DNA of 64,000 nucleotides. Origin: Algoriphagus sp. CAU 1675. Its GTDB lineage: Bacteria > Bacteroidota > Bacteroidia > Cytophagales > Cyclobacteriaceae. The stretch spans positions 986 to 64,985 of the forward strand of contig NZ_JARHUI010000001.1 of assembly GCF_029222925.1 (NCBI RefSeq). The letters are read 5' to 3'. The notes under the pieces were generated by a model. It was not told the DNA's origin. It was given only the letters and a program-made list of their open reading frames with translations, and did no database searches. The position numbers and the translations under genes are program-made. Shown in pieces: positions 28,335-30,287 of this stretch. Position 1 is the stretch's first letter. Each line of letters opens with the position of its first letter.

Positions 28335-28369
28335 CAGACCTGGCAGGTTTTGAAAACCTGCCAGGTCTG
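28335..28369. repeat. REP-like palindrome, copy 1
   Basis: Two 17-bp arms (cagacctggcaggtttt and its exact complement) have a single-base centre at 28352. It lies between the array terminator and the cas2 stop codon. Near-identical palindromes occur at 29643 and 30067, one of them inside a RAYT transposase gene, so this is that transposase's likely substrate. Confidence 0.85.
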
Positions 28370-28378
28370 AACTGCCCG

Positions 28379-28726
28379 TTAAAACAACTCCAACTGTTGA
28401 GCTGGAGATTCTTTTTCCATTTCTTTTTTTCCGTAAAAAATTTCCATCATTCCAAATTGCTTATCAGTAACCTGCATAATCCCGATTTTCCCTTTCTCGG
28501 GAAGCATATTTTTCACCCTTTTGGTATGCACATCAGCATTTTCCCGACTGGCACAAAATCGCATATAAATCGAAAACTGAAACATGGCAAATCCATTATC
28601 CAAAAGGTTCTTTCGAAACTTGGTAGCGACTTTTCGCTCCTTTCTGGTTTCGGTCGGCAAATCAAAAAAAACTAAGACCCACAAGCTTCTATATTGGTTA
28701 AATCTGGAATAGTATTTATCCTCCAT
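28379..28726 (-). CDS. cas2: CRISPR-associated endonuclease Cas2
   Basis: Cas2 forms the structural core of the Cas1-Cas2 spacer integrase. The ATG at 28726 ([20 protein letters not shown]) gives 115 residues, typical for type II-C, and an 11-bp overlap with cas1; the longer frame from 28771 would overlap by 56 bp. Ferredoxin-like features are [18 protein letters not shown] with the usual Asp after the first strand, [20 protein letters not shown] and [12 protein letters not shown]. It is the last gene of the cas operon. Confidence 0.95.
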
Positions 28727-29615
28727 ATTCGGGGTAAATGATTTTTCGGCTGATGCCGGCAAAGCATTCAAATAGTGAATTCGTGGTACGACTGGCCGCT
28801 ACCATCAAGGGGCTTTTTTGGCCATCTATTCGCACATCCAAGGCCGGGATACTTAACAACTCCCTTTTCATATTGGTGGATAGATCTGTAATATCATCCT
28901 CCGTATCTACCAAATGACAGACTACCAGGTCCACATAGGGTCGATAAGGCTCCATAATATCATCAGCAAGGCAATAGGCATTGTATTTATTTCTATGCCA
29001 GATTCCAAGTCCTGGAAACATTCCAGAAGACACCAAAGCACGCGCAATTACAGCTCTGAGAATCGCATACCCATAATTGAGGAGGTTATTGGGTGGAATT
29101 CCAGCTTGGTGTCGATTAAAATCCGGAATATCAAAAAGGCTTTGCCAATAAATAGCGGCTGCCTGAGCCTCATGGTTTCCTGTGTCCCCAGAGGCTACAT
29201 TTTTTGCTAAATAGTGGATCCGGGCAGAGTCCTTTCCTCTTTCTTTGAGATGAGCTGCTTGGTTTTGTATTTTAGCAGATACAGTTTGTTGCCAAAGGTT
29301 CTTTTTTAGCGGTTGTGAAGCCTGTATTTGATATCGTATGCGTTCAGTTTGTTCAGAGTGGCCATGCATAGGTAAAAGCAAACCTTCAGGCAAATGCTGA
29401 CTGTTGCAGGTCACGATACTGACTTTTTTCTCCGTAAGTTTGGCTATTAATCCATGGGTAATAGTGACCTGTTGGTTCTCCAATACAATCATTCCCAAGT
29501 CTTCGATGGGAACGGTGCGGTCAGGTTTATCGGCTTCGGGAAAAGATATAAAAAGCTGCTCATTTTTGGTACTGAGGTAGGCAGGATTTCCGAAGAATAG
29601 GGTACGTTTGATCAT
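28716..29615 (-). CDS. cas1: CRISPR-associated endonuclease Cas1
   Basis: Cas1 integrates new spacers at the leader end of the array. The 299-residue protein matches type II Cas1 size. Its metal-binding residues are in place: Glu149 ([12 protein letters not shown]), His207 ([12 protein letters not shown]) and Glu222 ([14 protein letters not shown]). The N-terminal beta domain begins [20 protein letters not shown]. It overlaps cas2 by about 11 bp and starts 69 bp after the transposase stop, with a REP palindrome in that gap. Confidence 0.98.
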
Positions 29616-29642
29616 TTGATTGACGATAAGGATAAAACTAAA

Positions 29643-29676
29643 AGACCTAGCAGGTTTCCAAAAACCTGCCAGGTCT
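29643..29676. repeat. REP-like palindrome, copy 2
   Basis: The arm agacctagcaggttt (29643-29657) pairs with aaacctgccaggtct (29662-29676), with one G-T type mismatch and a 4-nt centre. It lies in the 69-bp gap between the transposase and cas1 genes. Confidence 0.82.
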
Positions 29677-29684
29677 GAATCATT

Positions 29685-30287
29685 TCACTCGTACTCTTTA
29701 TTCAAAAGCCACTCTTTCTTTTTCTCCATCAACTCCCGAACATGCCTTGACCCGTCAAAGAAATTAAGGTAGAAATTCCTTTCAAGATTTGACGGTTTAT
29801 CCGGTTGCTGATATCCGTGCCAACTCGACCACTTCCATTCTTCTGTCCGGTTTACAAATCCATGCTTAACTGGATTCAAATGGATATACAAAAAGGTTTC
29901 CTGCCAGTGCTTTTCGTCCAGAATTGGAGTTCTTTTGAAATGCTTCACAAACAAACTTCCCTTTCTTTCAAATCGCTTGTTGATTGCTTTGGTGTAAGAG
30001 TTGAAGAAATCACTGAAAGCCTTGATTACGGGGTTATTGGAAGCGTGAGCGAGTTTTGTGGTGGAAAGACCTGGCAGGTTTTGAAAACCTGCCAGGTCTA
30101 AATCAGCCTTCACACCCACCATCAGATGAAAATGATTCGGCATTAAACAATAGGCATAAGTATCCACCACTTCTGCCAGATACTTGGCATACTGCTTTAG
30201 GAAAAACCGATAGTTTTCCTCATCCCGGAAAATATTCTCCGTCCCGTTTGCGTGGTTGTAGATATGATAGGACTGGCCTAGTTCCAT
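29685..30287 (-). CDS. REP-associated tyrosine transposase (RAYT, Y1 family)
   Basis: The 200-residue protein begins MELGQSYHIYNHANGTENIF and has the HUH-type metal motif HFH (His52 and His54 in LMPNHFHLMV). The catalytic Tyr98 is in FFNSYTKAINKRFERKGSLF, and the family end FLYIHLNPVKHGFV followed by WKWSSW is present, so it looks intact. Such enzymes cut and move single-stranded REP palindromes. Residues 63-74 (about LDLAGFQNLPGL) are encoded by a REP palindrome lying in frame between the two catalytic motifs. The gene starts 11 bp after cas9 and ends 69 bp before cas1, so it sits inside the cas operon and is probably cotranscribed. Type II-C operons normally lack it. Confidence 0.93.
   Translation of the reverse strand: MELGQSYHIYNHANGTENIFRDEENYRFFLKQYAKYLAEVVDTYAYCLMPNHFHLMVGVKADLDLAGFQNLPGLSTTKLAHASNNPVIKAFSDFFNSYTKAINKRFERKGSLFVKHFKRTPILDEKHWQETFLYIHLNPVKHGFVNRTEEWKWSSWHGYQQPDKPSNLERNFYLNFFDGSRHVRELMEKKKEWLLNKEYE
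30067..30099. repeat. REP-like palindrome, copy 3, inside the transposase gene
   Basis: Perfect 16-bp arms agacctggcaggtttt (30067-30082) and its complement (30084-30099) surround one central base. It is 33 bp long, a multiple of three, so it adds residues without breaking the transposase frame. Confidence 0.9.

Follow-up and report, generated by a model that had tools for sequence, protein, structure and literature searches.

A RAYT-type transposase gene recurrently found next to cas1 in type II-C CRISPR-Cas loci of Cyclobacteriaceae

The stretch of 64,000 nucleotides of Algoriphagus sp. CAU 1675 analysed here (hereafter the window) contains a probable type II-C CRISPR-Cas locus in which a gene for a TnpA_REP-like HUH/Y1 transposase (RAYT) lies among the cas genes, and the question is whether it is there by chance, as a passenger or as a partner of the spacer-recording machinery. 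On the minus strand, cas9 (30299-34867; 1522 aa; TIGR01865, 408 bits, with HNH_4 and RuvC_III) is followed after 11 nt by RAYT (29685-30287; 200 aa), and after another 69 nt by a type II cas1 (28716-29615; TIGR03639, 301 bits) and cas2 (28379-28771; TIGR01573, 78 bits; TTG start as listed, the true start possibly lying further in). The position of RAYT between cas9 and cas1, as given in the original prediction, was thus confirmed from the coordinates. The remaining features carry no strand assignment unless stated. The CRISPR array (25547-28248) consists of 36 copies of a 46-nt repeat, as found by exact-word search, and its far end is adjoined by a gene for a DUF6266 protein (24664-25317; PF19781, E 1e-15). 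Upstream of cas9, a 28-nt inverted match to the repeat (34913-34940, 82%) may represent a tracrRNA anti-repeat. The presence of cas9, cas1, cas2 and an array would correspond to type II-C, the absence of csn2 and cas4 being judged from the listed ORFs; the gene order is that of known type II-C systems, except that a fourth gene stands between cas9 and cas1.

Three palindromes accompany these genes. One lies between cas2 and the array, 9 nt from the end of cas2 (28335-28369; perfect 17-nt arms), another in the gap between RAYT and cas1 (29643-29676; 15-nt arms with one mismatch, loop of 4) and a third, of the type termed P1, within RAYT itself (30067-30099, minus strand; perfect 16-nt arms), where it is read in frame as DLAGFQNLPGL. 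Three copies of one palindrome had been predicted at these places; the places were right, but the exact sequence is common to no more than two of them. All three, folded as single-stranded DNA, have strongly negative z-scores (-6.0, -7.0 and -5.3), and none of 200 shuffles folded as well. Palindrome half-sites number 14 in the window against 1.66 expected, and in the whole genome (3.8 Mb) the full pattern has two matches, both at this cas locus. Genome-wide, half-sites with at most two mismatches amount to 48, compared with 36 for the reversed control, and a few variant pairs were found elsewhere. GTRG stands at the hairpin foot in 5 of 101 palindromes, its frequency at random places being 6.4%. 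The designation as REP palindromes holds in that they belong to RAYT, but not, in this genome, in the strict sense, and a canonical REP population was rejected on account of the low copy number and the lack of a GTRG foot.

The window RAYT has no match in Pfam, and its score against NCBIfam NF047646 (66 bits, E 2.7e-18) is below the curated cut-off of 80. Five structure models were computed, their mean pLDDT ranging between 78 and 46, and the best of them finds its closest match in the solved E. coli TnpA_REP 4er8 (Foldseek E 1.4e-8, TM 0.60/0.72), and a profile comparison with 4er8 gave E 4.7e-6. To our knowledge, E. coli TnpA_REP has no CRISPR link. The HUH motif and the single catalytic Tyr are present in the window RAYT as NHFH and YIHLNP; among the 39 distinct cas-linked RAYTs described below, all have HxH and 37 have the Tyr-NP motif, which is broken or lost in L047 and L180. 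In-frame palindromes have been reported in tnpA_REP genes of subclass 2.4 (Quentin et al., 2018; PMC6006769), and the in-frame palindrome is therefore not claimed here as novel. The window gene resembles that subclass, as described there, in its HUH/Y1 fold, in its occurrence in Bacteroidetes and in the location of the in-frame palindrome (30067-30099) between the HuH and Y motifs. It differs from it in lying within a type II-C cas operon, in having low-copy palindromes without the GTRG foot and in that its palindrome type goes together with two particular helix residues; the main text of that article does not contain the word CRISPR. The E. coli protein shares the fold, its helix alpha3 aligning with the diagnostic helix discussed below, and differs, according to the published account, in lacking an in-gene palindrome (165 aa against 200 here) and in requiring GTAG (Corneloup et al., 2021; PMC8266576).

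The comparison of the cas9-cas1 junction in relatives, proposed along with the original prediction, revealed that the layout recurs. Type II cas1 was found in 42 of 196 genomes of the window's family, Cyclobacteriaceae, and the next sense gene upstream of it is RAYT at 24 loci, complete or partial cas9 at 15 and another gene at 2, the last locus being at a contig edge; RAYT thus makes up 24 of the 26 genes other than cas9 in this position, always in the sense direction. The 15 loci where cas9 directly precedes cas1 indicate that RAYT is dispensable. Of 64 RAYT matches in the family at E<=1e-30, 24 adjoin cas1, and RAYT at this threshold and type II cas1 occur together in 28 of the 196 genomes against 11.6 expected, a figure that was tallied by hand from the two family searches and concerns genomes that are not independent. 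In G007, also of this family, RAYT is found downstream of cas2 on the opposite strand. In a second set, of named genomes with relatives of the window cas1, 20 of 80 loci (the best 80 of 233) have RAYT as the immediate upstream neighbour of cas1, in the same orientation; the two sets overlap, and six identical RAYTs were removed before tree building. A different RAYT-like gene (30 bits to NF047646) is upstream of cas1 in Sinomicrobium (L106).

A phylum-wide sample of 395 genomes gave 59 with a match, at 60 places, 56 of them new to the analysis. At these 56 loci there was one RAYT and one TnpA upstream of cas1, and one TnpA match and two weak RAYT matches downstream, so that a phylum-wide association was rejected and the trait appears confined to the window's family and a few relatives. 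A lone chance insertion was rejected on the repeated occurrence at cas1, and the recurrence suggests that RAYT regularly accompanies the spacer-recording machinery, whether as passenger or as partner. The special link with type II-C that had been proposed is borne out within the family, and the outcome that was to refute it did not appear: the window's genome has no second close RAYT (one weak match, E 5e-4), and the layout recurs at cas1 in 24 of the 42 family loci. In searches of CC-licensed PMC papers, no link of a RAYT or HUH transposase with type II-C cas1 was found.

Some of these loci carry additional genes. HIRAN-domain proteins (PF08797) of about 290 aa are encoded at L101:13-870 (plus strand; E 2.1e-12) and at L180:5632-6513 (minus strand; E 4.9e-15). 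In both cases they precede the HUH gene at the cas1 end, which is TnpA in L101 and RAYT in L180; the two loci are unrelated, and a protein of similar appearance was seen in L227. A pRiA4b ORF-3-like protein (PF07929) is encoded beside RAYT in the cas9-cas1 gap of L157 (5598-6239, plus strand), and long genes of other kinds occupy the gap upstream of cas1 in L169 and L178.

RAYT has evolved in step with cas1 and not with cas9. Across 37 of the 39 distinct cas-linked loci, two without a readable cas9 being omitted, RAYT and cas1 protein distances correlate with r 0.78 (0/2000 permutations), while the correlation with cas9 is r 0.14 (raw Mantel 25/2000) and falls to a partial r of -0.02 given cas1; a tie to cas9 was rejected on the latter value despite the raw Mantel result. 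In the window's clade, loci with cas1 identity of 0.75-0.90 have cas9 identities of either 0.57-0.84 or 0.22-0.30. It is thus partly supported by these comparisons that RAYT-cas1-cas2 is one evolutionary unit against which cas9 genes have been exchanged. Median dN/dS (NG86, pairs with dS < 2) was 0.12 for RAYT (70/136 pairs usable), 0.033 for cas1 (23/136) and 0.061 for cas2 (104/136), values that are rough because dS is high and near saturation; they point to purifying selection on RAYT, with dN/dS above that of cas1.

The association has also turned over. On a tree of 60 distinct RAYTs (39 cas-linked, 21 free), built without the palindrome columns, the cas-linked state changes 10 times, at least 7 of them forced, against 17.6 in shuffles, which indicates that the cas1 link is old and yet was repeatedly gained or lost; 21 of the 57 inner branches of this tree are open, and L109 forms a very long branch. 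Four of the 21 RAYTs away from cas1 belong to the window's clade. In L157 (genome G143) cas1 is window-like (0.82), whereas RAYT comes from another lineage (0.39), as sister to that of L181; one palindrome type is found before, inside and after this RAYT, and the P1 type remains after cas2. In L049, two truncated copies that retain the 5' portion of RAYT stand in tandem (4634-5404) before the full gene, at spacings of 277 and 279 nt. These and the single truncated copy in L182 end at the in-gene palindrome, which therefore looks like a break or join point; L040 has two shorter 5' copies followed by the other palindrome type. Upstream of cas1 in L175 (1-470; genome G106), repeated decayed pieces resembling RAYT, together with palindromes, were read by eye.

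In Flavobacterium the same slot is filled from a different family. An IS200-type TnpA, which shares the catalytic superfamily with RAYT, lies there in 12 of the 80 named-genome loci (best 80 of 233), all of them in this genus; the one tested matched PF01797 (E 2.5e-27). In all 12 genomes the cas-linked TnpA is the sole copy above 44% identity. Among 199 Flavobacterium genomes, TnpA occurs at E<=1e-60 in 24 and type II cas1 in 49; three of the 24 TnpAs (87-94% identity) adjoin cas1 and 21 (66-79%) do not, and of 10 genomes with cas1 of at least 85% identity only 3 have TnpA. Median dN/dS in Flavobacterium loci, obtained in the same way as for RAYT and equally rough, was 0.077 for TnpA (65/66), 0.034 for cas1 (42/66) and 0.052 for cas2 (55/55). 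RAYT palindromes were absent beside TnpA in the six loci scanned.

The palindrome within RAYT is coupled to the protein that contains it. Of 170 aligned RAYTs, the 108 near the window's were compared (69 of type P1, 39 of type P2), 41 with neither palindrome pattern and 21 with N-terminal identity < 65% being omitted. Residue 96 is N in all 69 P1 and S in all 39 P2 proteins, and residue 100 is likewise K or Q, without exception in the 108. The link with palindrome type, as mean total variation, is 0.308 for residues 88-124, compared with 0.075 for residues 1-60 and 0.143 for residues 125-200, and this excess was matched in none of 2000 label shuffles. In pairs with N-terminal identity of at least 0.92, 0.884 of the stretch 88-124 is shared when the types agree (23 pairs) and 0.624 when they differ (31 pairs). 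The pair L052 and P0103, of different types, shares 0.92 of the stretch and yet has different residues at precisely positions 96 and 100, which shows that the coupling does not need a large swap every time and can come about through a few residues. Palindrome type changes 25 times on a tree of the other columns (mean of 100 shuffles 32.1, least 27), and both residues change with type in 7/7 independent pairs on well-supported branches (sign test 0.016), which merit less trust in this quick tree. Control sites 37, 40, 61, 102, 119, 146 and 150 do not follow type; sites 105 and 116 do so partly. Residues 63-82, mostly encoded by the palindrome, form in the model a low-confidence loop directly before the diagnostic helix. 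Helix alpha3 of E. coli TnpA_REP, which binds DNA, is reported to contact REP via K82 (Corneloup et al., 2021; PMC8266576), and K82 aligns with K104 of the window RAYT, 8 and 4 residues past positions 96 and 100; given this spacing, all three would lie on one helix face. That two residues of the helix after the palindrome switch jointly with palindrome type is apparently new.

Palindromes also agree across the sites of one locus. A hairpin is present within the gene in 36/39 cas-linked and 11/21 free RAYTs, and of the 39 cas-linked loci 26 have one in the RAYT-cas1 gap, 19 have one after cas2 and 17 before RAYT, against a background of 165 out of 2500 200-nt segments of the same loci (sites of interest included). 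The window RAYT has a palindrome after the gene and none within 250 nt before it. Palindrome sequences are wholly different between lineages, and the palindrome that L109 carries at three sites is unrelated to the others. Over all loci, agreement with the internal palindrome of the same locus was equalled in 0/5000 permutations for the gap, 1/5000 for the site after cas2 and 9/5000 for the site before RAYT; in the window's clade it was equalled in 18/5000 for the gap and 0/5000 for the site after cas2, and there was no agreement for the site before RAYT (3112/5000). Among window-clade loci that could be typed, untypable ones being omitted, the same type as the internal one was found in 12/13 gaps, 13/14 sites after cas2 and 3/6 sites before RAYT.

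The view of the palindromes as scars of empty sites was rejected, with these types found after cas2 in 2 of 24 RAYT-less loci (L048 and L054), a sample that includes some species twice. L175 has remnants before cas1, and L045, suspected on one half-site, had no palindrome on scanning. Nested palindromes were also seen, in which the original arms enclose a different palindrome (TCCGCC...GGCGGA) in place of the old centre. These are non-coding in the gap of L035, L043, L044 and L158 and after cas2 in L048 and L050, and, to judge by peptides such as TFPIRRGGLEKL, coding in P0075, P0081 and P0089.

We tentatively favour, at somewhat less than even confidence, the reading that RAYT is a recurrent and selectively kept fourth gene of the type II-C adaptation half (RAYT-cas1-cas2) in Cyclobacteriaceae and some relatives. 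RAYT would be translated from the cas transcript, and would cut and rejoin the single-stranded hairpins formed by the palindromes. Its activity may serve Cas1-Cas2, for example if it supplies or trims the single-stranded ends from which spacers are captured, or if it keeps the module exchangeable. The in-frame palindrome and the DNA-binding helix that follows appear to determine the specificity of RAYT, and since the two switch together, target and reader would remain matched. The association with cas1, the evolution in step with it and the palindrome-helix coupling emerge directly from the sequence comparisons. Together with the sense position, the mostly kept motifs, the dN/dS of about 0.12, the within-locus palindrome agreement and the refilling of the slot by another RAYT lineage (L157) and by TnpA, they argue for a kept partner. 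The loci with cas9 directly upstream of cas1 (15/42), the broken genes, the remnants, the free RAYTs (21/60), the presence of TnpA in 3/10 close-cas1 Flavobacterium genomes and a RAYT dN/dS above that of cas1, with dS near saturation, argue against it. A broader version, that type II-C systems of Bacteroidota have more than once taken up HUH single-strand transposases as accessory factors for acquiring spacers (RAYT in Cyclobacteriaceae, another RAYT-like gene in Sinomicrobium and an IS200-type TnpA in Flavobacterium), with RAYT keeping its target matched through an in-frame palindrome beside the reading helix, both changing together, is less likely than not.

Nearly as likely as a role in spacer acquisition is that RAYT is a tolerated selfish resident, its RAYT-palindrome units settling in the cas9-cas1 gap, being inherited with cas1-cas2, turning over and decaying without any immune role; the gap would be favoured as a transcribed place in which a gene inserted in sense causes little damage. 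The replacement in L157, the truncated and shorter copies (L049, L182, L040), the decayed pieces of L175, the broken genes of L047 and L180, the free relatives and the many loci without RAYT are what such a resident would leave. It is less readily reconciled with RAYT being nearly the only gene other than cas9 directly upstream of cas1 and always in sense, and single-copy, not spreading and under purifying selection; these points nevertheless fit a resident too, because RAYTs are generally low-copy.

Transport of cas1-cas2 and a purely regulatory role are both less likely than a kept partner or a resident. That the palindromes are attenuators or stabilisers in the cas mRNA, and that RAYT tunes cas1-cas2 expression through binding to its own message, is improbable: hairpins do lie in most RAYT-cas1 gaps, and the window gap palindrome, followed on the minus strand by a T-rich stretch, is the longest terminator-like site found, but such sites are hardly commoner in the region (8) than in shuffles (6.0, sd 2.0), and the kept nuclease motifs would not be needed for regulation alone. 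About equally improbable is that RAYT acts on the flanking palindromes and carries cas1-cas2 between loci, as the original prediction had supposed: palindromes do bracket cas2-cas1 in the window, as it also stated, the hairpin present after cas2 in 19 of 39 loci mostly shares the in-gene type in the window's clade, and RAYT-cas1-cas2 stay together while cas9 changes, but each of the 42 family genomes has a single type II cas1 place with no second copy of the unit, the palindrome before RAYT is inconsistent and in the window's clade does not match the in-gene one, few RAYT-less loci keep one after cas2, ordinary homologous recombination would explain the exchange of cas9 equally, and the movement that is visible is that of the RAYT unit itself (L157; tandem copies in L040, L049 and L182).

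Other links between mobile elements and CRISPR loci are on record. Casposons and reverse-transcriptase-cas1 systems, as described in PMC6452270 and PMC5513706, likewise tie mobile-element enzymes to cas1; the partner here differs in being a HUH single-strand transposase encoded by a separate gene. In the type II-C locus of one Flavobacterium psychrophilum strain, IS982 is reported between tracrRNA and cas9 and IS256 in the array (PMC10309648), so that transposase genes within such a locus are shared with the present case, whereas those IS families are multicopy in their genomes. If RAYT acts in spacer acquisition, type II-C adaptation would have an unlisted single-strand DNA enzyme, which would matter for the way in which systems limited to Cas9, Cas1 and Cas2 make and trim their prespacers. 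As a mere resident, RAYT would still be a transposase long attached to an immunity module. In addition, the coupling of palindrome and residues amounts to a testable recognition code, in which positions 96 and 100 should decide which of the two palindrome types a RAYT binds and cuts.
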